A stretch of DNA of 64,000 bases from Flavobacterium palustre. Lineage in GTDB: Bacteria; Bacteroidota; Bacteroidia; Flavobacteriales; Flavobacteriaceae. Under the pieces are notes generated by a model. The model searched no databases. It had not been told where the DNA came from and worked only from the letters and a program-made list of their open reading frames with translations. Location: NCBI RefSeq assembly GCF_014639535.1, contig NZ_BMGA01000007.1, forward strand, positions 62,510-126,509, read 5' to 3'. A program made the translations under genes and the position numbers. Shown one piece after another: positions 1 to 27,361 of this stretch (position 1 is its first letter; every line of letters begins with the position of its first letter).

Positions 1-1636
1 CATCACCATAATGGATTTGGGTTAGTGCAGTTGGTTTTGATTTCGTTTCCGGTTCTACCTGATTCCAAGCCATAAACTCAGGACGACGCTGAAAAGCCAA
101 GTGATAATAATCAAAAAACAAATCAGTTATCGAATTAGCGTTTTGTGTTCCAAATTCTCTCGAAGCCCAGTATTGCATATGCGTTTTTACACTTTGACTT
201 TTATCAAAAGGGTTCATATTCCAAGCCATATCCAGAAATAATTCGATATTGTATTCATGCGGCTTGATGTCGCCACAATTCAAAATCCATAAATCACGGG
301 ATTGAAATTCATAGGCTTTGGTCATTTCTTCCCACATCAAAACCGGATTGGTTGAATTCAACCACAAATAATCATGCGGACGTCCCCAATATGAAGTATG
401 ATAATAAATTCCCGCTCCTCCGGCACGCGTTTGTTCTTTCGGATTACTCAACTGACGAATGTATCCATAATTATCATCCGTCCACACCAGTTGGGCATCA
501 TCTGGTAGTTTCAGACCTTTTTGGTAATAATCCAAAACCTCTTTATAAGGAATAAATGCCTGCGGAATTTTGTTCGGTTCTTTACCAATTTCTTTTTTCA
601 AAATAGCTCTTTGATCAGTAATTACCTGTTCTAATAATTTTACCTGAGAATCCGAATCATCTTCGCCCACAATCATTGGAGAATCATGCTCGCCACGCAT
701 TCCAACCGTGTAAATATTTTCAAAAGGAGCTGTTTCTTTGGCTCTTTTTCTGAAAAAATCTTTAATCACACCTGAATTGGTATCATAACGGTATTCGCCC
801 ATTGTTTTATGATTCCATTCGGCATTAATGTTACTCAACATCGGTTCAGCGTGCGAAGTTCCAACCACAATGGCATAATCATCGGCAACTTGTTTGTTTT
901 TTGGAAACGAATAAAAAGCCTTGGTGCTTTTGTGCATGGCTGGCCAAATAGTATTGGCTCTTAAACGCAACAACAATTCAAAAACTTTGGCATAGGTTTT
1001 AGAACCGATATCGCCCGTTTCCGGTTCGAAAGTTTTAGCTGCCCAGGGCTGCAATCCCCAATCTTCATCGTTTAGAAAAATTCCTCTGTATTTCACCGAT
1101 GGTGAACCATAAGTTTGTGTTTGAATATTTAAAACTAAATCCGTTTTTTTGTCTGGCGTAACATCAGCCCACCATTCCCAAGGCGAAACGCCAATCATTC
1201 TTGAAATTTCCAGCAATCCATAAGCCGTTGCTCTTCTGTCAGAACCTACAATAACCAATGCTTTTTTGATGGCTGCTGTTGGATTTTCAATGACTTGAAT
1301 TTTATACGTTTCCCATTTTCCTTTTACATCAGTAATCGAAATTTTTTGTTTCGAAACCAAATTATCAATCCATTTACTTTGGCCAATAGTTCCAGCCATA
1401 ATGGTTATTTCAGCATTATTTTTCGAAACATTTAATCGCTGATTAATAATCGAAAAAACATCATCAGCCAAAATTTTAGCCGCAATATGAACCACTTTGG
1501 GTTCTTTGTCTTCTACTAAAATGCCTGCTTTTTGTTTTTCGGAAACAATGGTAAAATCATTGTTTTGCGCCTTTGTTGCATTAGCAAAAAGAACAATAAA
1601 AACTATGAAAACACTATTAAACTTATTTTTGAACAT
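1..1636 (-). CDS. GH115 family alpha-glucuronidase, 3' end outside window (partial)
   Basis: The reading frame starts at the ATG complementary to 1634-1636 and stays open to the left edge, about 545 codons. A signal peptide ends near TKAQ (residue 24). Sequence typical of GH115 follows: YRGIFLNDEDWG near 183-194, LRANTIWPAMH near 225-235, WTDDNYGYIR near 385-394 and YYHTSYWGRPHDY near 411-423. GH115 enzymes remove alpha-1,2-linked glucuronic acid or 4-O-methyl-glucuronic acid, best known from xylan. Periplasmic or surface location is likely. It is the last gene seen in the minus-strand block, 4 bp after the phospholipase-like gene, so the two are almost surely cotranscribed. The usual C-terminal domain cannot be judged. 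In this setting alpha-GlcA on inositol is an alternative substrate (inference). Confidence 0.9.
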   Translation of the reverse strand, partial: MFKNKFNSVFIVFIVLFANATKAQNNDFTIVSEKQKAGILVEDKEPKVVHIAAKILADDVFSIINQRLNVSKNNAEITIMAGTIGQSKWIDNLVSKQKISITDVKGKWETYKIQVIENPTAAIKKALVIVGSDRRATAYGLLEISRMIGVSPWEWWADVTPDKKTDLVLNIQTQTYGSPSVKYRGIFLNDEDWGLQPWAAKTFEPETGDIGSKTYAKVFELLLRLRANTIWPAMHKSTKAFYSFPKNKQVADDYAIVVGTSHAEPMLSNINAEWNHKTMGEYRYDTNSGVIKDFFRKRAKETAPFENIYTVGMRGEHDSPMIVGEDDSDSQVKLLEQVITDQRAILKKEIGKEPNKIPQAFIPYKEVLDYYQKGLKLPDDAQLVWTDDNYGYIRQLSNPKEQTRAGGAGIYYHTSYWGRPHDYLWLNSTNPVLMWEEMTKAYEFQSRDLWILNCGDIKPHEYNIELFLDMAWNMNPFDKSQSVKTHMQYWASREFGTQNANSITDLFFDYYHLAFQRRPEFMAWNQVEPETKSKPTALTQIHYGD

Positions 1637-1640
1637 GATT

Positions 1641-2711
1641 TTATTTTTTAATTCTTTCGAAACGGTTATTCTCAAAACTCACCTTATAAGATGATTTAAA
1701 AAGCGTGGACGGAATGTAATAATCTGTTGAAATCACTTGTGCTCCCGATGCTTTTGCTTTTTCAAACTTAGTATAATCATTCGCTCTGGCTTCGGTTGTT
1801 CCATCGTCGGCGCGGGTGCGAACCATATAACCTTTGGCTACTAATTCTTTGATATATTTAAAATTTTTAATCGGGTCATTGATTACTCTAAAAGCAGCCT
1901 CAGGATTTCCTTCTTTGCTGTTTACAAACAATACCCTGTTTTTCAAACTGAAATATCCTTCAAGATAGCGATTAATTTTAGTTTGATTTTCATCCAAAAC
2001 AAAAAGAAATCTACCTTTTACATCCTTCAAATCTGGCCAGCCTTTTTTCAAAACAGCTTCTTCCAAAGTTTCAAATTTTCCCCGAACCAAATCAGGAGTA
2101 ATCAATTTTGAATCGTTAAAAACCGAACGAATTTCAATATCAATAATATCTAAAGCCGATTTGGTAAAAGGCAAAGGCTCGCGCAACTTTCTGTTATTAT
2201 CATCCTTAGCATTAATCAAAATAAAAATCGGCGTATGGTTTGGATTTTTATCCGACCATTTTTTCAGGGCTTGTAATCCTTCTTTAAAAAGCAAATAATG
2301 ACTTCTGAAATCAATATCCTGAATATGAAACATTTTTAATCCCGGTTGAGCCAGCTTATTTTCCTTATCATATTCTAATGGTGTTGCCCCTAATGACTTC
2401 ACAATTGCCAAGCCTTTTGGATTTGAATAATAACCTCCTTTAGGATCAAACAATACATCGTATTCTAAATTGCGAAGTCCCAAATCCAACTGTTTTTCAA
2501 TTGAAATATGAGTGTATTGAAGTGATTTTGCCGCTAGCGAATCCTGTTGGAACAAATAATTCCACAATGGAGCTTCGATGGCAATTTTATAAGAATTATG
2601 ACTACCAATCACCTGAATTGCATTCATTTTTACAGCTTTTTCTTTTTTAAAAGAAAGCAATAAAAACAATGAGAGAGAAAGCAGTACTATAATTTTATTT
2701 TTCAAAATCAT
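1641..2711 (-). CDS. Exported Ca2+-dependent phosphoinositide phospholipase C-like protein
   Basis: This 356-residue protein has an N-terminal hydrophobic segment (residues 5-21) and then GSHNSYK with His38. The pattern HNSY, an acidic LEYDV segment near 98-102 and FHIQDIDFRSH is that of the PI-PLC-like TIM-barrel family described as Ca2+-dependent phosphoinositide phospholipase C (PF16670 type). Family members cleave a phosphodiester between a lipid and an inositol phosphate. No lipobox Cys is visible, so it is probably periplasmic or anchored by its N-terminus. It sits between the HGSNAT-like gene (23 bp) and GH115 (4 bp) in one operon. A phospholipase inside a sugar-utilisation locus is unusual and suggests that the target is an inositol phospholipid glycan. 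Other phosphodiesters are possible. Confidence 0.72.
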   Translation of the reverse strand: MILKNKIIVLLSLSLFLLLSFKKEKAVKMNAIQVIGSHNSYKIAIEAPLWNYLFQQDSLAAKSLQYTHISIEKQLDLGLRNLEYDVLFDPKGGYYSNPKGLAIVKSLGATPLEYDKENKLAQPGLKMFHIQDIDFRSHYLLFKEGLQALKKWSDKNPNHTPIFILINAKDDNNRKLREPLPFTKSALDIIDIEIRSVFNDSKLITPDLVRGKFETLEEAVLKKGWPDLKDVKGRFLFVLDENQTKINRYLEGYFSLKNRVLFVNSKEGNPEAAFRVINDPIKNFKYIKELVAKGYMVRTRADDGTTEARANDYTKFEKAKASGAQVISTDYYIPSTLFKSSYKVSFENNRFERIKK

Positions 2712-2734
2712 ATCAGAAGAATTTGCTTAGGAAA

Positions 2735-3877
2735 TTAAATCCTAATATAAATACGCTTTTTATTCAACCACCATCCCAGAGACCAGCACACTAACATAAA
2801 TACAATTGCGGTAACAAATGCTCCGAAACTTCCCGGAAAAACCGTTTGGAAAATTTTCTCGCTCACCCATTCAAAAGCATCCATATCCGAATTTACCGGA
2901 ATAAGACGCAAAGTGATAAAAAACAACTCCGAAAACAAATAAATAAACAAAGGATTTTTACCAAAAATGGTACAGAATTCCACTCCAAAATGCGTTTGTT
3001 TTAATTCGATAAAATAAATTAAAACCGCCATAATAGATAAATCGATTCCTACGGTGTAAAGCACAAAAGAACCCGTCCATAATTTTTTAGAAATGGGTAA
3101 AACCAAATCCCACCAACGAGCTAAAGCCATTAAAAGAAAACCAACAATTAATAATTTGGCTATGCCTTCAAATGATTTTCCAATCCTTTGAATAAAAGTT
3201 CCGGCAATAAAACCTGCAATTACATTGACAATGGATGGTAGAGTGCTTAAAATTCCTTCCGGATCAAACGGAATACTGTCTCTTTTATAAATATGTCCTT
3301 CTCCCAAAACAGCCAAATCAAAACGAGTAGCAGCGTTTGTTGCCATTTCGAACTCAACTCCTGACTGTCCAAAAAAATATAAAATTGCCCAGTAGCCTAA
3401 CAATAAAATTACTGATGTAATGATTGCTATTTTCTCTGACACATAATAAAAAATAACTGCCGTAAAAAAATAACACAAAGCAATACGCTGTAAAACCCCC
3501 ATAACACGGGTTTCTGAAAAAGGCTTTAATTCCCAAACACCATCCATTCCCTGTCTAAAAAACGGAAACCAATACATTAAAAACCCCAACAGGAAAATAA
3601 TGACGCTGCGCTTGATTACTTTTTTCCAAAATACCTCAGCCGCAGTTTCTTTCATTTTTCCCATCGAAAAACTCATTGCATTTCCCATTGCAAAAAGAAA
3701 AGAAGGAAAAACCAAATCTGCTAAGGTAAATCCGAACCATTCCGCATGAGTCAAATAGTCATAGAAATGAGCTCCTGTTCCCGGCGTATTGACCACAATC
3801 ATTAAACAAATCGTCAATCCCCTGAATACATCAAGGGATAAAAAACGATTGGAATTTTGGTTAGAAATTGCATTCAT
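2735..3877 (-). CDS. HGSNAT/NagX-like multi-pass membrane acyltransferase (DUF5009-type)
   Basis: This 380-residue, very hydrophobic protein has about ten membrane segments. Residues 11-30 (RFLSLDVFRGLTICLMIVVN) and THAEWFGFTLADLVFPSF (43-60) match the start of the heparan-alpha-glucosaminide N-acetyltransferase (HGSNAT) family. His44 lies where, from memory, I place the active-site His of human HGSNAT, in a similar HAxWxG context. In lysosomes HGSNAT moves acetyl from cytosolic acetyl-CoA onto terminal alpha-glucosamine on the far side of the membrane. Bacterial relatives are called NagX and were proposed to act in GlcNAc uptake. Only 2 bp separate it from the GH89 gene, whose human homologue acts directly after HGSNAT. 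An acetyltransferase role on alpha-GlcN is therefore attractive; transport is the main alternative. Confidence 0.8.
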   Translation of the reverse strand: MNAISNQNSNRFLSLDVFRGLTICLMIVVNTPGTGAHFYDYLTHAEWFGFTLADLVFPSFLFAMGNAMSFSMGKMKETAAEVFWKKVIKRSVIIFLLGFLMYWFPFFRQGMDGVWELKPFSETRVMGVLQRIALCYFFTAVIFYYVSEKIAIITSVILLLGYWAILYFFGQSGVEFEMATNAATRFDLAVLGEGHIYKRDSIPFDPEGILSTLPSIVNVIAGFIAGTFIQRIGKSFEGIAKLLIVGFLLMALARWWDLVLPISKKLWTGSFVLYTVGIDLSIMAVLIYFIELKQTHFGVEFCTIFGKNPLFIYLFSELFFITLRLIPVNSDMDAFEWVSEKIFQTVFPGSFGAFVTAIVFMLVCWSLGWWLNKKRIYIRI

Positions 3878-3879
3878 GT

Positions 3880-6114
3880 TTAGTAATCGTATTTAATTGT
3901 TGGCATTTGCTCTGTAACAGGAATAATGCGAGAGCGGTATTTTTTGTGCAAAGCTTTAGCAATCACAACTGGATTACCTTTTGCTTTTACCGGAAAATCT
4001 TTTCTCTCATTTACCCATTTCCATTCCCATTCTTTAATTTTTTCATCAAAATTTTTCTGATCGAATGTTCCCCAATTGGCTTTTACATCTGCAAAAAATT
4101 GCTGCCATCTTGGTTTATAAAAATCAGTAAACAATCCGCTCCATTGCCTATTACTGTATTCATGCAATCTGTTATTAGCTCCACCCCAAAGTGTAATTAA
4201 ATCACGGGCATTTTGCTCATACAACGCTTTTTCTTTCTCATCAATTCCCCAACTTCTGGCATCAGCAATCCATGGACCTAAAAGAAAATCATAACGCGTA
4301 GCCAACAATTGATCCATATCATCAATCAATTCAATAAACTCTTTTGCGTTTTTTTCAAATGCTGCTTTGTCATTGTTTTGATAATCTTTGGCAATTTGCT
4401 GTTGCAAAGGCAAAGCATAATTAGCTAAAACCTGACGCGTCACATCTACCAAATCGTATTGAAAACCATCTGATTTTTGATAAGCCGGAGCCGCTTTTAC
4501 AAAAAGATCCCAAGCCGGCAATAAATCTTTTGAAGCATAATTTTGTTTGGTTCTTGCCCAGCGACGGAAACCTTCGAATGTAGGTCTTGAAACGATAATC
4601 GATTCCGCTCCATCACGAATTACCTGTCCGTTATAAACCGTTTTCACTAAAATATCCCAGGCTTTTGCAATATCAGCGTTTGATTTTCCATAACGATTCA
4701 AAGTATATTTTTGAAGCCATGAATTCAATTCAATTGGCGTATCTCTCCAGGTATTATCAGTCATTAATTCATACAAAACCGGATTTTGCTCGATAGCTTC
4801 CATTGTTAATCCAATTCCTTTTAATTTTCCTGATTTAGGATCTTTCAAGGCTTTTGCAGGTTCATTGGCAATGGCGTCAATACGCCCAAACAGTGTTATG
4901 TTTCCACCAAAATTATGCAACATATTCCAAATCCATTGTTTGCCATAGAAAGCTTCTGTACGTTTCCATATCGGTTCTATTTCTGCAGCCAAATCCAAAA
5001 TAATCATGCGGTCATCAGGAACTGCATCCAGCAAACCTTTGATTTGCGGTGCTTCCCAAAACTCCCTGTGACTGTAAAAAAGCCAGCCCTGCATGACCCA
5101 AACTGCTTTTTCATCAGCTGATTTCATCCCTTCAAAAATCTTTTTACTTAAATCAAACAAATAAGCAGGATCATTGGAAGGTGGTGTATTTTCATTAAAT
5201 GTATCTGCAGAATACAAATGATCGGTTCCATAAATCTTTGATTGCATTTCTAAGAATTTCTTCCCAATTTCGGCAAACAAAGGATCATTCGAATCTAAAA
5301 TATAAGTATCCTCAAAATCATTCCCCCAATTCGTTTGCTTTAATTTAGCATTAGGAAAAAACTTTTTAAACGATGCCGGAACGTGTCCTGTGAAAGCCGG
5401 CAAAACTGTTTTCATTCCTAATTCGCGTTCTCTTTTTAAAATCTTAATTTGCAAATCACGATGCGTGTCTTTCCAGTTTTTAGACAAAGGTCCTCCCCAA
5501 CCATCTAAATTTCCCATCCAAAACCAGGAGAAATAAGCCGGTCCGCTAAAAAAAGTATTCAAATCTTCATCTGTAAAACCATAGGATTTATACACTTCGT
5601 CCCAAATGTATTCTTCTCCGGTAATCGCCAATGGCATATTGATTCCGTGCAAAGCCATCCAGTCGATTTCTTTTTCCCAACGTTTCCAATCCCACCAACT
5701 CATACTGTAATTAAAGGTGCAATAGTTCAAATAATAGCGGTATTCGTAAGGTGTTTTTTTATGAATCAATTTAGGAACTGCCGGCAATTTCTTAGGCAAA
5801 TTCAAATTGGTTCCATTCCATGTTATTTGGCAATGTGTAACATTATTGAGATAATAATATAATGCAGATGCAACCGAAACACCGTTGTTTCCTCTCAACA
5901 CAATTTTATCTCCTTTAGAAACGATTTCAAACCAATCCTCTTTGGCTGAAGAATCGATTTCGATACTAAATTGCGACGCATGATTGGGTAAAATACGAGC
6001 AATAAGTTGGCTGGAAGCATTAGCTATTTCTGTCTCCGGCTTTGTCGATTGACTAACACCAGTTTCAAAAATAAAAACAATAAACAATATGACTAATTTA
6101 AGGTTGGTTTTCAT
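3880..6114 (-). CDS. GH89 alpha-N-acetylglucosaminidase, exported
   Basis: This 744-residue protein is a homologue of human lysosomal NAGLU. A signal peptide ends near residue 21-22. WWDWKRWEKEIDWMALHGIN (140-159), GEEYIWDEVY near 166-175, DTFNENTPPSNDP with Glu308, DLAAEIEPIW (374-383) and IWNMLHNFGGN (395-405) are hallmark GH89 segments. Glu308 and probably Glu378 match the two catalytic glutamates of NAGLU. The enzyme removes terminal alpha-linked GlcNAc. Known targets of the family are heparan sulfate ends and alpha-GlcNAc-capped glycans. It lies 2 bp upstream of the HGSNAT-like gene and 28 bp downstream of GH43, clearly in one operon. Length and motifs are complete, so the enzyme should be active. 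Confidence 0.95.
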   Translation of the reverse strand: MKTNLKLVILFIVFIFETGVSQSTKPETEIANASSQLIARILPNHASQFSIEIDSSAKEDWFEIVSKGDKIVLRGNNGVSVASALYYYLNNVTHCQITWNGTNLNLPKKLPAVPKLIHKKTPYEYRYYLNYCTFNYSMSWWDWKRWEKEIDWMALHGINMPLAITGEEYIWDEVYKSYGFTDEDLNTFFSGPAYFSWFWMGNLDGWGGPLSKNWKDTHRDLQIKILKRERELGMKTVLPAFTGHVPASFKKFFPNAKLKQTNWGNDFEDTYILDSNDPLFAEIGKKFLEMQSKIYGTDHLYSADTFNENTPPSNDPAYLFDLSKKIFEGMKSADEKAVWVMQGWLFYSHREFWEAPQIKGLLDAVPDDRMIILDLAAEIEPIWKRTEAFYGKQWIWNMLHNFGGNITLFGRIDAIANEPAKALKDPKSGKLKGIGLTMEAIEQNPVLYELMTDNTWRDTPIELNSWLQKYTLNRYGKSNADIAKAWDILVKTVYNGQVIRDGAESIIVSRPTFEGFRRWARTKQNYASKDLLPAWDLFVKAAPAYQKSDGFQYDLVDVTRQVLANYALPLQQQIAKDYQNNDKAAFEKNAKEFIELIDDMDQLLATRYDFLLGPWIADARSWGIDEKEKALYEQNARDLITLWGGANNRLHEYSNRQWSGLFTDFYKPRWQQFFADVKANWGTFDQKNFDEKIKEWEWKWVNERKDFPVKAKGNPVVIAKALHKKYRSRIIPVTEQMPTIKYDY

Positions 6115-6142: not shown

Positions 6143-7129
6143 TCAGAAACTGGAAACACCAGTAGGTTTTACTTTTAAAATGTTATGATTGGCATCAAAA
6201 TTCAAACTGTCAATACAAATTTGGCGCAATACATATTTTTCTTTTTGTGGAAGAATTCGGTGGTATAAAATATAATCCTGTCCTTTTTCATTAAAAACTG
6301 AATGATGTCCCGGACCATAAGTGATACTATCTGAAGTAGTTTCCAAAATTGGACTATTCTTAGCTGATTCAAATGGTCCCAAAGGAGAATTACCAACAGC
6401 ATATCCTACTTTGTAAGTCGCATCAATTGCTTTACCTGACGAAAACATTAAATAATATTTCCCGAAACGCTTAATCATGTAAGGCGCTTCAAAATAATCT
6501 TTAGGCGTAACTGCTTTTGGTTTTTCATCAAATGAAATCATATCCGAATTCAGTTTGGCTGCCATACAAGTTCCATTTACCCAATTAAATCCAGAACCCC
6601 AGTACAAATAAGCCTGACCATCATCATCAATAAAGCAATCGGCATCGATATTGTGTACCAAAGGATAATCTTTTGCTGAAATCAGTGGCGACTGGTCTTC
6701 TTTGGCATTTTTCCAAGGCCCTAACGGAGTATTACTCACCCCAACCCAAACTTCACTCCCAACTGAAACATACATATAATATTTCCCGTTTGCTGCTTTT
6801 CGTACCGATGGTGCCCAAACCATAGAATCTTTAGAATTTGGGCTTGTACAGGCTTTTTTTGTTGGCCAGTTTAAATGATGGCGTTCAAATTGTATAAAAT
6901 CTTTTGTTGAAAACACTGCCAGTTCATCGCCACCCCAAGGATCAATTGTAGCGTAAATAAAAAAGGTATCTCCTTCTTTTACAATACAGGGGTCTGCAAA
7001 ATATCCCGGTAGTATTGGGTTTGTGATTTTTGATTTTGCTTGTAAATTTTCCTTTTTGACAGGAAGTTTACACGAAATCAAAAACGTAGTCATCAACAAA
7101 ATAAAAACACCCAGTTTCAAATTCTTCAT
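6143..7129 (-). CDS. GH43 family glycoside hydrolase lipoprotein
   Basis: This 328-residue protein has a lipoprotein signal (LISC, Cys20), so it is probably membrane-attached. It is a five-bladed beta-propeller of the GH43 type with the three acidic residues in place: Asp46 in GYFADPCIV (base), Asp162 in NIDADCFIDDDG (pKa modulator) and Glu214 in YFEAPYMI (acid). MVWAPSV near 103-109 is also typical. GH43 enzymes act mostly on alpha-L-arabinofuranosides, beta-xylosides or beta-galactans; the specificity cannot be read from this sequence. It sits 26 bp after GH92 and 28 bp before GH89 in the same operon. No extra C-terminal beta-sandwich domain is present, and the protein is at the short end for the family. 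Confidence 0.9.
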   Translation of the reverse strand: MKNLKLGVFILLMTTFLISCKLPVKKENLQAKSKITNPILPGYFADPCIVKEGDTFFIYATIDPWGGDELAVFSTKDFIQFERHHLNWPTKKACTSPNSKDSMVWAPSVRKAANGKYYMYVSVGSEVWVGVSNTPLGPWKNAKEDQSPLISAKDYPLVHNIDADCFIDDDGQAYLYWGSGFNWVNGTCMAAKLNSDMISFDEKPKAVTPKDYFEAPYMIKRFGKYYLMFSSGKAIDATYKVGYAVGNSPLGPFESAKNSPILETTSDSITYGPGHHSVFNEKGQDYILYHRILPQKEKYVLRQICIDSLNFDANHNILKVKPTGVSSF

Positions 7130-16341: not shown

Positions 16342-16683
16342 ATTGATTGATTTGTGTTTTGATTCTGATTTATTGGTTTCAAAAAGCAATAAAATGGTCA
16401 TCAGAAATTAAGAGCTCTGTTTAAGCCTTTGAATTGTAATTGATTTGCTGTTGCAAAAAATAATACTCTAAAGAAATCTTCACTTATCCTAACAAATTGT
16501 AATGGATTAATTAAGGCAAAAACATTTCTCCTCATTCACTTTTAAAACAGTTGAATTTCTCTTTTCGTTAAAAAAAAATTAAGCTATTGAAATAAGTAAA
16601 GATTAGATTTTCCCTCTTTTTTAAAACAAAAACACTTTGAATGGCATAATGAAAACAATCTTATTGCATTCATTTTTTAAGAA
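16342..16683. other. Intergenic stretch between susD and GH92 with no gene
   Basis: About 340 bp of AT-rich DNA without a credible ORF apart from the 20-codon upstream extension of GH92. It may hold a second promoter for the enzyme genes, but I could not find a convincing TAnnTTTG element on the minus strand. Confidence 0.5.
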
Positions 16684-18405: not shown

Positions 18406-21400
18406 TTAGAATATCACGTTTAAACCTAACAAGAATGATCTTGTTTTTGGATAAAAGTTATTCGAATCTACACCTGGTGCAGTACCTCCTTGTTCAACCT
18501 CAGGATCAATTCCGCTGTATTTTGTAATGACAAACAGATTATTTGCCGTAGTGTACAGACGTAAGCTTTTAACAAACTTATTGATGTTTTTAAAGTTATA
18601 ACCAAGAGTCGCATTATCTAATCTGATGTAACTACCATCTTCTATAAAGCGTGAAGAATAACGATAAGAGTTAAAATCGGCTGGAGATTCATTCTCTGCA
18701 TCTACTAAAATATTAGTTGTCATTGCAGTTGTAGGTCTGAATAAATCGGCACGAGTAACATTGAATATTTTATTTCCAAATACACCTCTGAAGAAAATAC
18801 TTAAATCAAAATTCTTATATTGGAAAGTATTTGACCAACCTAATAATGCTTTTGGCTGAGCATTTCCTACATAGTGATAATCAACACCATTTAATGGACT
18901 TGTAGTTAAATTTCCATTTTTATCATAATATTGAGAAACTCCAGCATCATTTTTACCAGCATAATCAAGTGAAAAGAACTGTCCAAGAGGTTTTCCTTCT
19001 TTTAAGATTTGTAAAGTTGCTCCAGTTTGTCCTGCTCCATCAGGTTGTACTCTTCTGATAGAATCTCCTCCAATAAAGAATGGATTCGTTAATTTTACGA
19101 TTTCGTTTTTATTACTTGCAATATTTAAGTTAGTTGACCAAGTAAAATTAGCCGTTTTAACCGGTGTAGCACCTAAAGCAATTTCAATACCTTTGTTAGA
19201 CATAATACCACCATTAGCTACAATTGAACCAACAGGAACCAATACCGGGTTTACCTGATAATTAAAAATCATATCGGTTGTTTTCTTGTTGTACACATCA
19301 ACAGAAGCTGTTATCGCGCCATTTAACAATGACATATCAAGACCAAAGTTTGTTGTTGCTGTTTTTTCCCATTTCAAATCAGGATTAGCAGCCTGTATTG
19401 GGCCGTAAGCACCTATTTGTTGTCCATTGTAATAGAACGTTCCGGCGCTTCCTGAAATAAATTGAGCAGTATAAGCGTTGAATCCTGAAGAGTTTCCTGT
19501 CACACCATAACTTGCACGAAGTTTTAAGTCACTGAAAATATTTTGATTTTGCATGAAGTTTTCTTTATCAATTCTCCAGGCACCTCCAACTGATGGGAAG
19601 TAACCCCATCTGTTATTTGCTCCAAAAACAGATCCTCCATCTCTTCTTACGGTACCCTGTAAAAGATATTTATCATTGTAATTGTAGTTCACACGAGCAA
19701 ATTCAGAAATCAAACGTGTTTTTTGATAAGCCTGACTGTCTCCAAAGTTTACTACATAACCATTTACAGAAGTGTAATTACTTAAAGCTAAATTGTTATA
19801 ACCCACATTATCTACAGGGAAATTAGTAGCTGTTGCCTGAAAACCATCTCCTAAAGTATTTTCCTGCCATGAATAACCTAAAACCGCTTTAATTTTATGA
19901 TTTCCAAATTCTTTATCCCAATTTAAAAAACTCTCTATAATGTTATTTGTATTTTCATAGTAGTTTCTTAATGCAGAACCATTTACACCAAAATTAACTA
20001 ATGTTTTTGTCAAAGGAGGATCTGGGTTATTGTAGAAATTCGCACTATTATATTGAGAATAATAGCTATCATAAAACTCTCCGTGAGAAGTACTTAATTT
20101 TTGATGTGCAATATTTAAGTTATAAGTAAATCCAAAAGGAAGCTTAATTTCAGTAGTAAAGTTACCAATAAGGTTATTTGCTTTTGTTTCATCTGTTCCA
20201 TGCTCAATTAAAGCTACTGGATTGAAATATCCTGTACTTGCAAAATTTTCAAAAAATGAACCATCTGCATTTCTAACTGGAGAAACCGGCAAGTGATTGA
20301 TTGATTGTAAAAGAACCGTATTACGTTGTGGTACGTTTTTATAATTACTAACCGAATTAGTAACATTCAAACCAAATTTTACTTTATCATCAAAAGCATA
20401 TTGCTCAACAGATAAACGAGCAATTACACGACCAAAATCACTTTTCTTAAGAATACCTTCTCTTTTAATAGAAGTTATACTAGCAGAATAACTGCTTTTT
20501 TCACCACCACCACTTATCGATAAGTTATGACTGCTTGAAAGCGCACCAGATCGTAAAACTTCTTTTTGCCAATTTGTATTGGCACCTTTATCATTTTCAG
20601 GAGTAAAATTCAAATTGTTTTTAGTAGTGAAAGCTCTTAATTGAGTAGCGTTCATCATATCTAATTGATTTGAAACATTTTCTACACCAAAATAATTGTT
20701 ATATGAAATTTGAGTTCTCTCTTTACTCCCTTTTTTAGTAGTTACCATAATAACTCCATTTGCTGCTCTGTTACCGTAAATTGCTGTTGCCGCAGCATCT
20801 TTAAGTACATCAATAGTTGCAATATCATCTGGTGAAATCATAGAAATATCAACACCTGGAATTCCATCTACTACATAAAATGGTCCTTGAGAACTATTTA
20901 AAGTAGAAACCCCACGCATAACAACTGAAGCTTTTCTTGTTGGATCTCCACTAGATGAGATATTCAAACCGGCTACTTTACCCTGAAGTAATTGTCCCAC
21001 ATCACTTATCGCTCCTTTATTCATATCCTCTGCTTTAACAGAAGTAACAGAAGTAGTTAAATTTTTTCGGGAACCTTTTCCGTATCCTACTACCACAACT
21101 TGCTCAAGACTTTGAGCCCCCGATACTAATTTAATAGTCATATTAGATCTTGCACCACTTAACTTAATGCTCTGGTCTGCAAAACCTACATAAGAAACAA
21201 TAATAACAGCATTGGGATTAGAGACTTCGAGTCTGAATTTCCCATCTAAATCTGTCTCTACACCATTTCGTGTTCCACTTTCCAAAACATTAGCACCCGG
21301 TAATGGTAAATTTTGATCATCGACCACCTTACCTGACACCTGTGTTTTTTGTGCCCACGAATTAATTGAAAACGCTATTAAGAAAAATAACGTCAATAAT

Positions 21401-21420
21401 TTGAATTTGGTTTTTTTCAT
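18406..21420 (-). CDS. SusC/RagA family TonB-dependent outer-membrane transporter
   Basis: This 1004-residue protein has a signal peptide ending at WAQ (residue 24). A carboxypeptidase-D-like domain follows (VSGKVVDDQNLPLPGANVLE), then the conserved VVVVGYG region, the plug (LLQGKVAGLNI, GVSTLNSSQGPFYVVDGIPG, IDVLKDAAATAIYGNRAANG) and a 22-strand barrel ending in NVIF. It imports oligosaccharides across the outer membrane using TonB energy. It is the first gene of the minus-strand block, opposite the MIOX operon across a 582-bp gap. No N-terminal signalling (STN) domain is present, so regulation through an anti-sigma pair is not indicated. Confidence 0.97.
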   Translation of the reverse strand: MKKTKFKLLTLFFLIAFSINSWAQKTQVSGKVVDDQNLPLPGANVLESGTRNGVETDLDGKFRLEVSNPNAVIIVSYVGFADQSIKLSGARSNMTIKLVSGAQSLEQVVVVGYGKGSRKNLTTSVTSVKAEDMNKGAISDVGQLLQGKVAGLNISSSGDPTRKASVVMRGVSTLNSSQGPFYVVDGIPGVDISMISPDDIATIDVLKDAAATAIYGNRAANGVIMVTTKKGSKERTQISYNNYFGVENVSNQLDMMNATQLRAFTTKNNLNFTPENDKGANTNWQKEVLRSGALSSSHNLSISGGGEKSSYSASITSIKREGILKKSDFGRVIARLSVEQYAFDDKVKFGLNVTNSVSNYKNVPQRNTVLLQSINHLPVSPVRNADGSFFENFASTGYFNPVALIEHGTDETKANNLIGNFTTEIKLPFGFTYNLNIAHQKLSTSHGEFYDSYYSQYNSANFYNNPDPPLTKTLVNFGVNGSALRNYYENTNNIIESFLNWDKEFGNHKIKAVLGYSWQENTLGDGFQATATNFPVDNVGYNNLALSNYTSVNGYVVNFGDSQAYQKTRLISEFARVNYNYNDKYLLQGTVRRDGGSVFGANNRWGYFPSVGGAWRIDKENFMQNQNIFSDLKLRASYGVTGNSSGFNAYTAQFISGSAGTFYYNGQQIGAYGPIQAANPDLKWEKTATTNFGLDMSLLNGAITASVDVYNKKTTDMIFNYQVNPVLVPVGSIVANGGIMSNKGIEIALGATPVKTANFTWSTNLNIASNKNEIVKLTNPFFIGGDSIRRVQPDGAGQTGATLQILKEGKPLGQFFSLDYAGKNDAGVSQYYDKNGNLTTSPLNGVDYHYVGNAQPKALLGWSNTFQYKNFDLSIFFRGVFGNKIFNVTRADLFRPTTAMTTNILVDAENESPADFNSYRYSSRFIEDGSYIRLDNATLGYNFKNINKFVKSLRLYTTANNLFVITKYSGIDPEVEQGGTAPGVDSNNFYPKTRSFLLGLNVIF

Positions 21421-22002
21421 TTTTAATTAGTATTAGTTAATAATATTATGGTAAAATTAACAGTTCGACTCCAGCTTGAAATGGACAAATTGGTCAAAAA
21501 CATATAAAATTCAATCAAATACCGCTAAAAAAAGTGATTAAAAAATACAATTATCGCTTTTAATCTGTTATTTTTTTGTGTTATTATCAAAACAAACCCT
21601 TAATTAACAAGCTGTTCGCTAATTCTTAGCTCCCTGAACACCTAAAACATTTAAGTTAATTTTAAAACCTCTTTTTTAACATTATAAATTACTAATAAGA
21701 GCTATTTTTAAAGTGAAAGCTATCCCTTATAATGTTTCTAGCTTCAAATTCGGCTCAAAAAAGACTTTATAGCCAAGAACTTTTACAAATCAACATCACA
21801 ATAAAAAGAAGGATTAAATACACATTAGATAATTTATCAAATTAAAAATTGACACTTTGAAAAATCCATCCATGTTTTTGAAGCATTTATCCATTTTTTA
21901 AAAAAAGTATCTGCGTAATTTTGAAATTCACAATTAACCAAATAATTGTCCTGTTCTAAAAAAATGCAACATTAACCAAAACAGTATAAAAATTGAACTT
22001 AA
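21421..22002. promoter_or_regulatory. Divergent intergenic region between susC and the MIOX operon
   Basis: This 582-bp AT-rich region has no ORF of note and must hold the promoters for both arms of the locus. TAATTTTG at 21916-21923 fits the -7 consensus for the plus strand, but no TTG lies at the usual distance. A loose inverted pair TGTTC/GAACA occurs near 21610-21640. I saw no strong operator, riboswitch or clear minus-strand promoter. Confidence 0.45.
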
Positions 22003-22884
22003 ATGAAAAAAGCAAACAACACCGACAAATTCAATAATCCAATGCATCAAATTGATGATTGGGAAGAAAACATAATCGAACGCTATCCTGATCCGGCTGC
22101 CGAAAAAAAAGAAAAAGAAGAATTCCGTAATTATGTGGATTCAGAAAGAGTAGAGACCGTAAGAGAGTTTTACCGTATTAATCATACGTATCAAACCTAT
22201 GATTTTGTATGCGAAAAAGAAAAAGAGTTTTTGAAATTTGACCGTAAGGAAATGTCTTTATGGGAAGCTGTAGATTTCTTAAACACCTTAGTAGATGATA
22301 GTGATCCGGACATCGATTTAGATCAATTTCAACATTTACTGCAAACCTCCGAAGCCATCCGTGCCGATGGTCACCCGGATTGGTTTGTATTAACGGGATT
22401 TTTACATGACATCGGAAAGGTTTTATGTCTTTTTGGCGAACCTCAATGGGCTGTTGTAGGAGATACGTTCCCAGTAGGTTGCAAATTCTCAGATAAAATA
22501 GTTTATCCGGAATTTTTTGCTGCCAATCCTGACAGTACAAACGAAAAATACAATACAAAATACGGTGTTTATTCGCCAAACTGCGGATTAGACAAGGTAA
22601 AAATGAGCTGGGGACATGATGAATATTTGTACCAAATCATGAAAGATTATTTACCGGAACCTGCTTTATACATGATTCGTTACCATTCTTTTTACTCACA
22701 ACACAGAGAGAATGCTTACACGCATTTAATGACAGAGCACGACATTGAAATGTTTGAATGGGTTAAAAAATTCAACCCTTATGATTTATATACGAAAGCG
22801 CCTGTAAAACCAGATTCAAAGGCTTTACGACCATATTATGAAGAATTAGTAGCCAAATATTTGCCTGCCAAATTAAAATTCTAA
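22003..22884 (+). CDS. myo-Inositol oxygenase (MIOX)
   Basis: This 293-residue cytoplasmic protein matches eukaryotic MIOX closely. The di-iron ligands are all present: His111 in [10 protein letters not shown], His135-Asp136 in GFLHDIGKV, His205 in [11 protein letters not shown], His228 in [10 protein letters not shown] and Asp261 in [24 protein letters not shown] (145-160) is a MIOX signature. The enzyme uses O2 to open myo-inositol to D-glucuronate. MIOX is uncommon in bacteria, where inositol is usually oxidised by the IolG route. It is the first gene of the plus-strand operon, 33 bp before the symporter gene. The product would feed the same glucuronate pathway that handles sugar released by GH115. 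Confidence 0.96.
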
Positions 22885-22917: not shown

Positions 22918-24498
22918 ATGTTATACAGTTATTTAGGCTTTTTTGGTTTCACTCTGCTTGTTATTCTATACACAAGCTATAAACTCAGAAAAGATAATCT
23001 GGATACTTCAAATGGATATTTTTTTGCCGGTAAAAGCTTAACAGCTCCTGTAATTGCGGGCTCAATGCTTTTAACCAATATTTCTACCGAACATTTAATT
23101 GGGATGAACGGGAGTGCTTATAAAAACGGAATTATTGTTATTGCCTGGGAAATCACATCGGCAATTGCCTTAGTTATAGCTGCCATTTACATTATTCCCC
23201 GATTTTTAAAATTAAAACTCACCACTATTCCGGAGTTTCTGGAAAGACGATTTGATTCAGACATCCGCTCTGTAGTTGCCTTTTTACTAATGAGTTCCTT
23301 TGTGGTTACTTTGTTACCCATTATTTTATATTCAGGAGCCATTAATATCGAAAGTATTTTTGATTTTTCAACCGTATTTTCGATTTCAAAGAAAGAATCT
23401 TTAATTTATACCATACTCGCAATAGGCATCTTAGGATCAGCCTACTCCATTTTTGGTGGTCTAAAAGCCATTACATTTTCCGACTCTCTTAACGGAATCG
23501 GATTGATAATTGGAGGATTATTAATTCCCATAATAGCATTGTACCAAATTGGAAAAGGAAATATTTTTACCGGAGTAAGCAGTATTTACCATTTTGCACC
23601 AAAAAAATTTGATATTATCGGAAGTGAAGACTCTATACTTCCCTTTTCTACCCTTTTCACAGGACTCATGATTAACCAAATTTACTTTTGGGGAATGAAT
23701 CAAACAATTGTCCAACGGGCATTAGGCGCTAAAAATTTAGAGGAAGCTCAAAAGGGATTAATTATTACAGGAATTTTCAAATTATTAATGCCGCTAATTA
23801 TTGTTCTTCCGGGATTAATTGGTTTCTATTATTTCCATGAAGAATATTACACTAAACCCGACTTAATTTATCCATTATTAGTAAAAAAAGTATTGCCCAG
23901 CTACCTCTATGGCTTTTTTGCCGCAGTGATACTAGGAGCTGTACTGAGTACATTTAACAGCATCTTAAATTCTGCCAGCACCATTTTTTGCATGGATATT
24001 TACAAAAAAACGTTTAATAAAAATGCAACCGACGAAAAACTAGCCTATTTTGGCAAAATATCAGCAGCAATACTGGCTGTTTTAGCTATTGCTATTGCCC
24101 CATTAATGGCGTATGCTCCTTCTGGACTGTATTTTTTATTACAGGAATTAAACGGAATCTTTTTTATACCTATTTCTTCCGTATTGATAGCAGGATTATT
24201 TTTCAGGCAAATCAATGCTGTAGGGGCTAAAGCAGGACTTTTTTTTGGTTTTGTTTTTTACATCTTAACCTCATTTGTATTCAAAATCAACATTCATTTT
24301 GTCCATTTATGGGGAATCGAATTTGTTTTGAACTTCATCATCATGCTAATGGTTTCAAAACGATATGCTACAACTGTAAACAATACTCAATACGAAGAAG
24401 AACTCTCTAAAAACCAGGAACAATCATGGTCAGGAATGAATCTGGCAGGAACTATTTTAGTTTTATTAACCATATTCATTTATATCATATTATCTTAG
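22918..24498 (+). CDS. Sodium/solute symporter (SSS family, SglT-like)
   Basis: This 526-residue inner-membrane protein has about 14 hydrophobic segments. Residues 28-60 (LDTSNGYFFAGKSLTAPVIA followed by GSMLLTNISTEHLIGMNGSA) and YSIFGGLKAITFSDSLNGIG are typical of sodium/sugar symporters. Family members bring in glucose, galactose or myo-inositol with Na+. Placement between MIOX and the deaminase fusion makes inositol, glucuronate or an amino sugar the likely cargo (inference). Spacing is 33 bp upstream and 41 bp downstream, consistent with one operon. Confidence 0.9.
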   Translation: MLYSYLGFFGFTLLVILYTSYKLRKDNLDTSNGYFFAGKSLTAPVIAGSMLLTNISTEHLIGMNGSAYKNGIIVIAWEITSAIALVIAAIYIIPRFLKLKLTTIPEFLERRFDSDIRSVVAFLLMSSFVVTLLPIILYSGAINIESIFDFSTVFSISKKESLIYTILAIGILGSAYSIFGGLKAITFSDSLNGIGLIIGGLLIPIIALYQIGKGNIFTGVSSIYHFAPKKFDIIGSEDSILPFSTLFTGLMINQIYFWGMNQTIVQRALGAKNLEEAQKGLIITGIFKLLMPLIIVLPGLIGFYYFHEEYYTKPDLIYPLLVKKVLPSYLYGFFAAVILGAVLSTFNSILNSASTIFCMDIYKKTFNKNATDEKLAYFGKISAAILAVLAIAIAPLMAYAPSGLYFLLQELNGIFFIPISSVLIAGLFFRQINAVGAKAGLFFGFVFYILTSFVFKINIHFVHLWGIEFVLNFIIMLMVSKRYATTVNNTQYEEELSKNQEQSWSGMNLAGTILVLLTIFIYIILS

Positions 24499-24539
24499 TA
24501 AAGCATTTCATTCATTTAAAAAAATAAAAAAACAACACA

Positions 24540-26468
24540 ATGATAAAAAGCAATATTGACAAAGCTACCGGATTTGAAAAACGTTTCGAAAATATCAATA
24601 CTGTTGTTTTCGAAAATTCAAAAACAGCCTCAATAGCAGTCGCTCACGAGATTGCGGCATTAATCAGATCCAAACAGGAACTGCAGGAATTCTGCGTTTT
24701 AGGATTAGCCACCGGATCTTCACCAAAAGGTTTGTATTCCGAATTAGTACGCATGCACAAAGAAGAAGGTCTTAGTTTTAAGAATGTTATCACTTTCAAT
24801 TTGGACGAATATTATCCAATGGAACCTGATTCTATCAATAGCTACGTGCGATTTATGAAAGAATTACTGTTGGATCAGGTGGATATTTTACCCGAAAACT
24901 ACAATATCCCCGATGGAACTTTATCTAAAGAAGAAATTCAGGATTATTGTGCCCAATATGAAGAAAAAATAGAAGCACTTGGTGGCATCGATTTGCAAAT
25001 TCTGGGAATTGGAGGTAACGGACATATTGGTTTTAACGAATCAGGTTCCTTACAAAACTCCAAAACCCGATTAGTTGCCTTAGACCACATCACCAGAGTT
25101 GCTGCCAGCAAAGATTTTTCAGGTTTAAACAATACGCCCAGAACAGCTATAACATTAGGAGTAAAAAAAATAATGGAGGCAAAAAGAGTCATTTTATTGG
25201 CTTGGGGTGAGGGAAAATCCAATATTGTCAAAGAATCTGCAGAAGGTCCTGTAACAAACCTTGTTCCCGCTTCTTTCTTGCAGGAACACAATGATGCTGT
25301 TTTTATTTTGGATCAGGGAGCTGCTTCTAAACTGACCCGAATCAACACACCCTGGCTGGTTGAAAAAATTGTCTGGACCGACCAGCTAACCCGAAAAGCT
25401 GTACTAAGAATGGCATTAGACCTAAAAAAGCCTATTCTTAGACTTACCGATGCCGATTATATCGAAAACGGGATGAGCGATTTATTAGCTGATTTAGGAC
25501 CGGCCTACAATATCAACATCAATATTTTCAACAAATTACAACACACCATTACAGGTTGGCCGGGGGGAAAACCCAATGCCGACGACACTAACAGACCGGA
25601 ACGAGCCGAACCGGCCAGAAAAAGAGTTCTTATTTTTAGCCCGCATCCCGATGATGATATTATCAGCATGGGAGGAACTTTTATGCGCCTTCAGGAACAA
25701 GGTCACGAAGTTCATGTAGCCTATCAAACTTCTGGAAATATTGCCGTAGCCGATAGTGAAGCCGAAAGATTTGCCCGTTTTGTATGCGATTACAACGAAA
25801 AATTCAATATCGACAGTCCCGAAGCCGATACCATTTACAACAAAGCACACGAATTTCTAACCAATAAAAAAGCAAGTCAGAAAGACATTCCTGAAGTTAG
25901 AAACCTAAAAGGCCTTATTAGAAAAGGAGAAGCACGCGCTACCGCTCATTTTGTGGGCTTAAATGACGACCAAATTCACTTTATGGACCTTCCGTTTTAC
26001 GAAACCGGAACTATCGAAAAAAAGCCTTTGGGTACAGCCGATATTCAGTTGACAATGGATCTTATCGAAAAAATAAAACCGCATCAAATATTTGCCGCAG
26101 GCGATCTTGCCGATCCTCACGGAACGCACAAAGTATGTTTAGATGCCATTCTTGAAGCGGTAAAAAATCTGAAATCAAAAGACTTCATGAAAGATTGTTG
26201 GTTATGGCTTTATCGAGGTGCATGGCAGGAATGGGGAATTGACGAAATAGAAATGGCTGTTCCAATGAGTCCTGACCAGGTGTTGGCTAAAAGACATGGA
26301 ATTTTCAAACACCAATCACAAAAAGACGGTGTGGTATTCCAGGGAACAGATGCCCGAGAATTTTGGCAAAGAGCCGAAGACCGAAACAAAGAAACAGCCG
26401 AATTATACGACCAATTAGGTCTGTCTAATTATGCTGCTATGGAGGCCTTTGTTAGGTGGAAATTTTAA
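24540..26468 (+). CDS. nagB: Glucosamine-6-phosphate deaminase fused to PIG-L/LmbE-type deacetylase domain
   Basis: This 642-residue two-domain protein begins with a NagB-like domain (about 1-300) carrying LGLATGSSPKGLY, NLDEYYPM with Asp89-Glu90, and GIGGNGHIGFNESGS with His162 and Glu167, the expected catalytic residues. It should convert glucosamine-6-phosphate to fructose-6-phosphate and ammonia. The C-terminal domain (about 360-642) has HPDDDIISMGGTF (369-381) and a downstream DPHGTHKV, the Zn site of PIG-L/LmbE N-deacetylases, which remove acetyl from GlcNAc groups. Such fusions are known in Bacteroidota; I know of no proven function for the second domain. It would supply both GlcNAc deacetylation and deamination in this operon. 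Confidence 0.9.
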   Translation: MIKSNIDKATGFEKRFENINTVVFENSKTASIAVAHEIAALIRSKQELQEFCVLGLATGSSPKGLYSELVRMHKEEGLSFKNVITFNLDEYYPMEPDSINSYVRFMKELLLDQVDILPENYNIPDGTLSKEEIQDYCAQYEEKIEALGGIDLQILGIGGNGHIGFNESGSLQNSKTRLVALDHITRVAASKDFSGLNNTPRTAITLGVKKIMEAKRVILLAWGEGKSNIVKESAEGPVTNLVPASFLQEHNDAVFILDQGAASKLTRINTPWLVEKIVWTDQLTRKAVLRMALDLKKPILRLTDADYIENGMSDLLADLGPAYNININIFNKLQHTITGWPGGKPNADDTNRPERAEPARKRVLIFSPHPDDDIISMGGTFMRLQEQGHEVHVAYQTSGNIAVADSEAERFARFVCDYNEKFNIDSPEADTIYNKAHEFLTNKKASQKDIPEVRNLKGLIRKGEARATAHFVGLNDDQIHFMDLPFYETGTIEKKPLGTADIQLTMDLIEKIKPHQIFAAGDLADPHGTHKVCLDAILEAVKNLKSKDFMKDCWLWLYRGAWQEWGIDEIEMAVPMSPDQVLAKRHGIFKHQSQKDGVVFQGTDAREFWQRAEDRNKETAELYDQLGLSNYAAMEAFVRWKF

Positions 26469-26548
26469 AAATCAAACCCTTTTTATAGAAAATCGGTGTG
26501 AATTCCATTGAATTTGCACCGATTTTAAAATAAATAACACTATCTAAA

Positions 26549-27361
26549 ATGAATTTATTCAACATTAAAGACAAAGTTGCCGTAATTACAGGAGGAACGG
26601 GAGTTTTAGGAAGTTCCATTGCTGAGCATTTAGCGGCTTCAGGTGCAAAAATTGTCATATTAGGACGCAATCAGGAAACAATAGACCAAAGCATCAGCAC
26701 TCTTAAAGAAAACGGCTATGAAGCCTTGGGAATTGCTGCTGACATACTGAACAAAAAATCATTAGAAGCAGCACGGGAAAAAATAATCTACCACTACGGA
26801 AAAGTAGATATTTTATTAAATGCTGCCGGTGGAAACATGCCCGGAGCTACTATTACTGATGAACAAACTATTTTTGATTTGTCGATGGATGCTTTTCAAA
26901 CAGTAACCGATTTAAACCTAAACGGCACAGTGCTTCCATCGATTGTTTTTGGGGAATTGATGGCTCAGCAAAAAGAAGGAGTTATTGTTAATTTCTCGTC
27001 AATGACGGTAGAAAGAGCCGTAACCCGTGTAGTAGGTTATTCGGCTTCTAAGGCGGGAATGGAAAACTTTACCCGATGGATGGCTGTAGAAATGGCTACT
27101 AAATTTAGTGACAAAATCCGTGTGAATGCGATTGCTCCCGGTTTTTTTATTGGAAACCAAAACCGAAAACTGCTAACCAATGAAGACGGAAGTTATTCTC
27201 AAAGAGGACACAGCATTATTAACAACACTCCTATGAAAAGATTTGGCGAAGCCAATGAATTAGCCGGAGCTATTCATTTTTTATGCAGTGATGCTTCTCA
27301 ATTCATTACCGGAATTGTGCTTCCTGTAGATGGCGGATTTAGTGCTTTTAGCGGGGTTTAA
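26549..27361 (+). CDS. SDR-family D-mannonate oxidoreductase (fructuronate reductase) candidate
   Basis: This 270-residue short-chain dehydrogenase has ITGGTGVLGSS (13-23) for NAD(P), NAAGG near 91-95, Ser150/151 and Tyr164-x3-Lys168 (YSASK). The segment LLTNEDGSYSQRGHSIINNT with PMKRFGEANELAGA is typical of the SDR fructuronate reductase/mannonate oxidoreductase group (UxuB/YjmF-like). It would reduce D-fructuronate to D-mannonate in glucuronate breakdown. Glucuronate isomerase and mannonate dehydratase are not in the window. It follows the NagB fusion by 80 bp and ends the operon before a terminator. Substrate assignment is by family resemblance and context. Confidence 0.8.
   Translation: MNLFNIKDKVAVITGGTGVLGSSIAEHLAASGAKIVILGRNQETIDQSISTLKENGYEALGIAADILNKKSLEAAREKIIYHYGKVDILLNAAGGNMPGATITDEQTIFDLSMDAFQTVTDLNLNGTVLPSIVFGELMAQQKEGVIVNFSSMTVERAVTRVVGYSASKAGMENFTRWMAVEMATKFSDKIRVNAIAPGFFIGNQNRKLLTNEDGSYSQRGHSIINNTPMKRFGEANELAGAIHFLCSDASQFITGIVLPVDGGFSAFSGV

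Follow-up and report, generated by a model that had tools for sequence, protein, structure and literature searches.

A 64,000-nucleotide stretch of the Flavobacterium palustre genome (C7:62510-126509 of 3.97 Mb), the window of this analysis, carries in its first 27,361 positions a gene cluster that joins SusC- and SusD-like proteins to glycoside hydrolases (GH families), a phospholipase C (PLC), a transmembrane acetyltransferase and a myo-inositol oxygenase (MIOX). Gene content, conservation and a predicted protein fold suggest, with moderate confidence, a system of the polysaccharide utilisation locus (PUL) type for the headgroup glycan of plant glycosylinositol phosphorylceramides (GIPCs). 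The features are listed by position in the window and strand; the last lies beyond the left edge.

2..1675, minus: GH115 alpha-glucuronidase, N-terminal 558 of 1000 aa within the window (PF15979, 450 bits; likely start near 1636)
1641..2711, minus: PI-PLC-C1, predicted Ca2+-dependent phosphoinositide PLC with signal peptide (PF16670, 419 bits)
2735..3877, minus: predicted HGSNAT/NagX-like transmembrane glucosamine N-acetyltransferase (human HGSNAT, E 7.9e-22)
3880..6114, minus: predicted GH89 alpha-N-acetylglucosaminidase (PF05089/PF12972/PF12971, covering N, TIM-barrel and C domains)
6143..7129, minus: GH43 of arabinofuranosidase/xylosidase type, lipobox-like LISC (PF04616, 173 bits)
7156..9450, minus: GH92a, predicted alpha-mannosidase (PF07971, PF17678)
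9535..11112, minus: GH28, candidate alpha-uronidase (PF00295, 72 bits)
11289..12137, minus: DUF4861 protein, short form without the first ~110 profile positions (PF16153, 139 bits)
12220..14013, minus: toroid protein, 597 aa, predicted (alpha/alpha)-toroid uronate polysaccharide lyase (AlphaFold, Foldseek)
14026..16401, minus: GH92b, predicted alpha-mannosidase (PF07971, PF17678)
16755..18374, minus: SusD-like surface glycan-binding lipoprotein (PF07980, PF14322)
18406..21420, minus: SusC-like TonB-dependent transporter (PF07715, PF13715, PF00593)
21421..22002: divergent region between SusC and MIOX, 582 bp (computed gap)
22003..22884, plus: MIOX, predicted to convert inositol to D-glucuronate (PF05153, 370 bits)
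22918..24498, plus: SSF sodium:solute symporter, perhaps for inositol, uronate or sugar uptake (PF00474, 191 bits)
24540..26468, plus: glucosamine-6-phosphate deaminase with C-terminal PIG-L-type domain, NagB-PIG-L (NF002557, 1061 bits; cut-off 384)
26549..27361, plus: short-chain dehydrogenase/reductase (SDR) of D-mannonate oxidoreductase (fructuronate reductase) type (NF006132, 376 bits; cut-off 281)
L003:12763-16812: hybrid two-component system (HTCS) regulator, 3 bp from a metallophosphatase gene

All domains named in the first-pass annotation of positions 1 to 27361 were recovered, with strong Pfam scores and, for the HGSNAT-like protein, through alignment with human HGSNAT. The genes form two divergent runs. 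The minus-strand run reads SusC, SusD, GH92b, toroid, DUF4861, GH28, GH92a, GH43, GH89, HGSNAT-like, PLC and GH115; the plus-strand run reads MIOX, SSF symporter, NagB-PIG-L and SDR. Adjacent SusC and SusD homologues accompanied by carbohydrate-active enzymes (CAZymes), and an HTCS regulator linked in the same gene run, are the make-up of a PUL. The minus run is cut by the window edge, beyond which lie the rest of GH115 (full gene match C7:61185-64184), the metallophosphatase 21 bp further on, HTCS and a hexuronate operon. The eight genes from GH92a through HTCS overlap or are spaced by at most 28 bp. A second run, 436 bp past HTCS, encodes a major facilitator superfamily transporter, KduI, KduD, UxaC, 2-keto-3-deoxygluconate (KDG) kinase and 2-keto-3-deoxy-6-phosphogluconate (KDPG) aldolase, and ends with a mannitol-dehydrogenase-family oxidoreductase and altronate dehydratase. 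The extent first assigned to the locus, 1..27361, holds on the right, where unrelated genes for leucine-rich-repeat and DUF1761 proteins and later gldN/gldM follow; its left boundary was an artefact of the window, since GH115 runs on.

Gene order from SusC to altronate dehydratase is conserved in two other members of the genus (G601 and G557), the latter without PLC. A Pfam scan of 26 proteins (locus plus uronate run) gave no endo-xylanase, endo-mannanase or endo-beta-GlcNAcase family besides GH28, a family that includes endo-polygalacturonases, and no sulfatase match; this profile suits a small headgroup. Promoter-like matches in the SusC–MIOX divergent region were no more frequent than in shuffled sequence. 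Window positions 36198-40860 hold gldN, gldM and a protein with a formylglycine-generating-enzyme domain, probably GldK, an ordinary Flavobacterium backbone.

Recurrence of the gene set in Bacteroidota

Of 395 genomes sampled from the phylum, 29 carry MIOX, 26 GH89 and 14 the toroid gene. MIOX and GH89 are found together in 15 genomes against 1.9 expected (Fisher p 8e-13) and in 5 of 170 genera (p 0.006), p-values that are too small given kinship, nine of the 15 genomes being of one genus. In 12 of the 15 the two genes lie 3.8-26.4 kb apart; in G224, G133 and G521 they are distant or on different contigs. MIOX and the toroid gene share ten genomes (p 7e-10) and 6 of 170 genera (p 1.5e-5), within 15 kb of each other in six of the ten.

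Neighbourhoods came from two sources. Searching named genomes with the toroid alignment yielded at least 80 loci, with MIOX in the examined flanks of 32, and 20 MIOX neighbourhoods were added from the phylum sample of 29 MIOX genomes. Six MIOX genomes met via the toroid gene stand outside the tally of 51 MIOX loci, and the neighbourhoods of G109, G133 and G354 are not included. The 51 loci, a set biased by the 32 chosen through their toroid gene, contain SusC in 37, SusD in 36, toroid in 32, a metallophosphatase (two types) in 30, GH92 in 30, SSF in 25, GH28 in 21, HGSNAT-like in 19, DUF4861 in 14, GH89 in 8, PLC in 5 and GH115 in 2. The flanks, about 10 kb long, do not reach GH89 in several Flavobacterium loci, in which 16-26 kb separate it from MIOX; many contigs also stop short. 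Corresponding counts for the 20 phylum-sample neighbourhoods are SusC 6, GH28 9, HGSNAT-like 7, phosphatase 6 and GH92 6.

The recurring unit comprises MIOX, SusC/SusD, a phosphatase, the HGSNAT/NagX-like protein, GH28 and GH92, often with GH89 and toroid, in an order that varies across genera. Its smallest clear version (L170) consists of SusC, SusD, GH89, HGSNAT-like, GH28 and MIOX; L163, L165 and L131 are fuller, L128 is followed by uronate genes, and L100 brings together toroid, DUF4861, GH88, phosphatase, MIOX, SSF, PLC and GH43. Most of the unit is present in these six loci of other genera. GH28, which had earlier been set aside with the toroid protein as unexplained, belongs to it: of the 19 loci that combine MIOX with an HGSNAT-like gene, 16 carry GH28, and of the remaining three L093 has GH115 while L105 and L128 have neither. 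Relatives add GH2, GH27, GH51 and GH29, which would correspond to galactose, arabinose and fucose trimming.

Predicted functions of the encoded enzymes

The toroid protein matches nothing in Pfam, NCBIfam or the PDB sequences. An AlphaFold model built on 47 sequences (the window sequence plus 46 of 79 listed open reading frames, ORFs) reached pLDDT 89.7 and has the (alpha/alpha)-toroid plus beta-sandwich lyase fold. Its top 43 Foldseek matches in the PDB are all uronate polysaccharide lyases, whose substrates are glycosaminoglycan (GAG), hyaluronate, chondroitin, xanthan, alginate, heparin and ulvan; a GH127 with a similar helical barrel follows at rank 44. The best match is GAGase VII (8khw, E 1.7e-10), and identities are about 10% at a TM score of about 0.5. 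N127, H180, N183, H184, R185, Y231, R279 and Y292 are invariant in the 47 sequences. The protein is thus probably a uronate lyase, and these proteins are a candidate new lyase family; from the model, a lyase acting on 4-substituted glucuronic acid (GlcA) would fit the bond between glucosamine or its N-acetylated form, GlcN(Ac), and GlcA (alpha-1,4). GH88, a family known for enzymes active on unsaturated uronates, occurs in 8 of 100 loci, seven of them without MIOX.

Several further observations concern the toroid family. Its closest named relative among the matches listed is from Flavobacterium glycines (92% identity). Distant relatives (35-43%) occur in Acidobacteria, Verrucomicrobia and Opitutae records (L139, L140, L142, L144, L150-L154), with no MIOX or SusC/SusD found in the examined flanks; in L144 the ORF filter missed the toroid gene, which was counted absent. 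Six loci from Belliella, Cognataquiflexum and one Sphingobacteriales member (L106, L108, L109, L115, L120, L137) pair the toroid gene with full-length DUF4861 and no MIOX nearby, with GH88 in five and aldehyde dehydrogenase in all six. In Balneolaceae (L143, L145, L146), one or two PF16670 PLC genes come after SusC, SusD and toroid, and two of the three loci have UxaC close by. A protein of 185-212 aa (an ORF of ~188 aa before the toroid gene) is conserved beside GH92 and toroid in 14 Flavobacterium loci (L080-L091, L097, L147); two members scanned gave no Pfam match.

The HGSNAT-like gene lies 2 bp from GH89. Its product aligns H44 with human H297, presumably the catalytic histidine, and N30 with human N286; it scores 19 bits against DUF5009 (cut-off 25) and 160 bits over 343 residues against NagX (NF046061; equivalog cut-off 480). 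GH89 aligns with human NAGLU at 2e-172, E308 and E439 occupying the positions of E316 and E446, which are taken to be catalytic. GH115, with BtGH115A (5by3) as its nearest solved structure, is one of five GH115 genes in the genome. Across 179 genus genomes the locus copy has matches of 83-87% in four others, all toroid carriers, and further homologues reach at most 49%; it therefore looks like a dedicated paralogue. In G601 and G557 the match and the toroid gene are some 10 kb apart, and in the fragmented G582 and G622 they are on separate contigs; GH115 is also present at L077, L093 and L125 among the 80 named toroid loci listed. The solved relatives of GH43 are named as xylosidases, arabinofuranosidases, xylanases and arabinanases. 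GH28 is nearest in NCBIfam to rhamnogalacturonidase BT4146 (283 bits, cut-off 500), and a role as alpha-GlcA-inositol hydrolase is a candidate suggested by this analysis. A full-length DUF4861 relative, modelled with moderate confidence from a 12-sequence alignment (pLDDT 71.6), is mostly beta, has GH38 proteins as best Foldseek matches and resembles domains of other carbohydrate enzymes; a literature search on DUF4861 yielded no paper.

MIOX aligns with inositol oxygenase 2huo at E 1.9e-85 and keeps H111, H135, D136, H205, H228 and D261 in the metal-site motifs, residues presumed to bind the metals. NagB-PIG-L proved to be an ordinary Bacteroidota glucosamine-6-phosphate deaminase and does not point to glycosylphosphatidylinositol (GPI): it scores far above the NF002557 cut-off and has four copies in the genome. 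The idea of its PIG-L domain as a GPI de-N-acetylase was rejected on the same grounds.

In the PLC, H38, N39, D85, D89 and H129 are invariant and E83 is 93% conserved (15 aligned sequences). The gene is single copy in this genome and matched in 15 of 196 order genomes (3 of 72 genera). Sixteen PLC neighbourhoods include SusC and/or SusD in 13 and a 611-aa-type phosphatase in ten. Two metallophosphatase types (611 aa and ~330 aa, both PF00149) take the same slot in different lineages. Stand-alone loci of PLC, large metallophosphatase and SusC/SusD (L026, L029, L030, L031, L033-L037) occur in two families and are probably a separate phosphatidylinositol or inositol-phosphate uptake locus. L027, L028 and L032 have PLC and SusC/SusD with no phosphatase, and the PLC homologue at G088:C1:3667470-3668468 contains one in-frame TAA and may be decayed.

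Substrate assignment and its alternatives

The locus brings together enzyme families that would handle alpha-GlcN(Ac), alpha-GlcA, inositol, phosphate and mannose. GPI has no uronic acid, N-glycans have neither inositol nor uronate, and xylan and arabinogalactan have neither GlcN nor inositol. A passage of PMC8099651 gives the best-described GIPC as GlcNAc(a1-4)GlcA(a1-2)inositol-1-O-phosphorylceramide, with a second form that has GlcN; it also reports that the core carries mannose in vegetative tissue of Arabidopsis, and names arabinose and galactose as further sugars. By gene content, every GIPC bond has a candidate enzyme in the locus, and the GlcN form supplies a reason for the acetyltransferase. 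For the combination of alpha-GlcN(Ac), uronic acid, inositol, phosphate, mannose and arabinose, GIPC is a better fit than GPI, N-glycan, xylan or GAG.

A route can be proposed on this basis. PLC, or another lipase where PLC is missing, would detach the phosphorylated headgroup from the lipid, SusC/SusD would import it, and the metallophosphatase would strip its phosphate. Mannose would be trimmed by GH92 and arabinose by GH43. The HGSNAT/NagX-like membrane protein may acetylate any GlcN lacking an acetyl group with cytoplasmic acetyl-CoA, after which GH89 would remove GlcNAc, as in the lysosome; alternatively, the toroid lyase may cut GlcN(Ac)-GlcA, with GH88 in some relatives removing the unsaturated uronate. 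Alpha-GlcA would be freed from inositol by GH115, or by GH28 where GH115 is absent. MIOX would then convert inositol to GlcA, so that both core parts could feed hexuronate catabolism through UxaC, the mannonate oxidoreductase-type SDR, mannonate dehydratase (elsewhere in the genome), KDG kinase and KDPG aldolase, and GlcN could enter by NagB.

It is possible, though rather doubtful, that these loci form a widespread and previously undescribed Bacteroidota class that eats whole glyco-inositol-phosphate headgroups: HGSNAT/NagX and GH89 would acetylate GlcN and then cleave it off, much as in the lysosome, a new uronate lyase family would cut GlcN(Ac)-GlcA, GH115 or GH28 would act on alpha-GlcA-inositol, PLC would cut despite the blocked 2-OH (perhaps via the 6-OH), and sugar and cyclitol would meet at glucuronate.

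A number of observations weigh against the GIPC assignment. GH89 is in only 3 of the 20 phylum-sample MIOX neighbourhoods, and nine of the 20 lack SusC/SusD, phosphatase, HGSNAT-like, GH89, GH28, GH92 and toroid alike (in one, L161, the ORF filter missed even MIOX); MIOX also occurs in other settings. MIOX is missing from the flanks of 48 of the 80 toroid loci listed: either MIOX sits elsewhere or the toroid lyase has a part in further settings as well. The Foldseek superpositions of the toroid model, at TM ~0.5, have a root-mean-square deviation of 8-13 A. The roles of GH28, DUF4861 and GH43 in the locus are candidate roles. The uronate run has altronate dehydratase, of the galacturonate branch, and lacks mannonate dehydratase, an enzyme required by the glucuronate branch; two copies of the latter gene lie on contig C1, one ~3 kb from another GH115 gene. 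Directly left of that run is a pectin locus (L007:3734-13711; C7:33733-43710) with two GH28, two PF07470 (GH88), GH43, a pectate lyase-pectinesterase fusion and a GDSL protein, and the run may be shared with it or belong to it. The distant mannonate dehydratase and the adjoining pectin locus make the hexuronate operon weaker evidence that GlcA is consumed.

The lipid-releasing step is the least straightforward. PLC is optional, near 5 of the 51 MIOX loci in the examined flanks and absent from G557, so a lipid-releasing enzyme was not found in every locus. Nine of the ten PLC-plus-phosphatase neighbourhoods are small SusC/SusD loci without other enzymes, and PLC here may accordingly be a separate phosphatidylinositol module. 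Canonical PI-PLC attacks via the inositol 2-OH, according to a section of PMC10149971. That hydroxyl is occupied by GlcA in GIPC, so an enzyme cyclising through it could not cut the intact lipid. The PLC would use another hydroxyl, act after GlcA removal, or act on plain phosphatidylinositol. A 6-OH (1,6-cyclic) route is said to exist for the Streptomyces PF16670 enzyme; no supporting paper was among the literature matches listed, and PMC10149971 covers the 2-OH route alone.

It is unlikely that the target is instead an algal, fungal, protist or bacterial lipid whose inositol-phosphate glycan contains uronic acid and hexosamine; the enzymes would then work as proposed and only the donor would differ. 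Names of relatives (Aestuariivivens, Salegentibacter, Balneolaceae) suggest sediment, lake or marine sources, and accessory enzymes vary (GH29, GH27, GH51, GH2). Several other carriers are plant-named (F. glycines, panacis, hibisci, pokkalii), presumably from plants or the rhizosphere. A passage of PMC8099651 calls the polar head structures of 23 species, ranging from algae to monocots, largely unknown, yet an excerpt of PMC9113257 describes GlcA addition to inositol phosphorylceramide as plant-specific.

A mosaic is improbable: a module for free inositol or phosphatidylinositol (PLC, phosphatase, MIOX, SSF) beside unrelated enzymes for wall side chains of arabinogalactan protein, xylan or pectin. 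It would accommodate the adjoining pectin locus, the stand-alone PLC, phosphatase and SusC/SusD loci, the nine MIOX neighbourhoods without glycan enzymes, and the resemblance of GH115 to BtGH115A, which reportedly prefers decorated arabinogalactan. Nonetheless, GH89, HGSNAT-like, GH28 and MIOX stand compactly together in other genera (L163, L165, L170, L131), the locus-type GH115 is limited to toroid carriers among the 179 genus genomes, and the three wall polymers leave alpha-GlcNAc removal, the acetyltransferase and MIOX unexplained.

GPI glycan (Man-GlcN-inositol-phospholipid) is very improbable. It would employ GH92 on mannose, the HGSNAT-like protein and GH89 on GlcN, PLC on the lipid and MIOX on inositol, and also accounts for the phosphatase; GH115, the uronate lyase fold, GH88 by the toroid gene in relatives, and GH43 remain without a function. 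The inositol-phosphate glycan reading of the first-pass annotation is partly supported, and is strengthened in its GIPC-like form by comparative genomics, the phosphatase outside the window and the lyase fold; its treatment of GIPC and GPI as equals does not hold, because the lyase, GH88 and GH115 agree with GIPC but not with GPI.

Use of a heparosan-like GAG (GlcNAc-GlcA, by lyase) or of high-mannose N-glycan (by GH92) is hardly credible: many toroid fold matches are GAG lyases, heparan sulfate is degraded with the help of HGSNAT and NAGLU, and N-glycan loci typically carry GH92, but the 26 scanned proteins hold no sulfatase or endo-beta-GlcNAcase-type match, and inositol oxygenase, PLC and GH115 would have no part.

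Relation to known systems

The first-pass annotation knew of no described locus for GIPC headgroups, and no bacterial GIPC utilisation system was among the matches listed in a search of the open PMC subset, outside which most subscription papers and preprints lie. Nothing on bacterial MIOX in such loci was found among the literature matches listed. According to an excerpt of PMC9113257, GIPCs may account for as much as 45% of the lipid in plant plasma membranes. If the GIPC assignment is true, a testable enzyme can be named for each bond of a headgroup; tools would become available for trimming the structurally little-known glycans of GIPCs; an undescribed lyase family is proposed; and the retention of an inositol oxygenase by glycan-uptake genes in some Bacteroidota would be accounted for.

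The locus shares with Sus-type, HTCS-regulated PULs of Bacteroidota the SusC/SusD pair, an HTCS in the gene run, exported CAZymes, a symporter and catabolic genes; it differs in having MIOX, PLC and a transmembrane acetyltransferase, and its predicted target is a small glycolipid headgroup. As with lysosomal HGSNAT and NAGLU (GH89), an acetyltransferase is paired with GH89, here as adjacent genes, and the His and Glu positions are kept, but the setting is a bacterial SusC/SusD locus with a predicted GlcN-GlcA-inositol substrate instead of heparan sulfate. The NagX model covers 343 residues of the same protein, below its equivalog cut-off. With the (alpha/alpha)-toroid uronate lyases (GAGases and hyaluronate, chondroitin, alginate and heparin lyases), the toroid protein has a common fold and an invariant His, Asn, Arg and Tyr set, whereas sequence identity is about 10%. 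The Ca2+-dependent PI-PLCs 3h4w and 5fyo, presumably from Streptomyces and Pseudomonas, share PF16670 and an aligned core with the locus PLC; pairwise similarity is weak (E ~1e-6), and the locus enzyme stands beside a phosphatase and SusC/SusD. Seen against these systems, the locus is a variation on the PUL theme with a candidate new lyase family inside, leaning towards GIPC over GPI.

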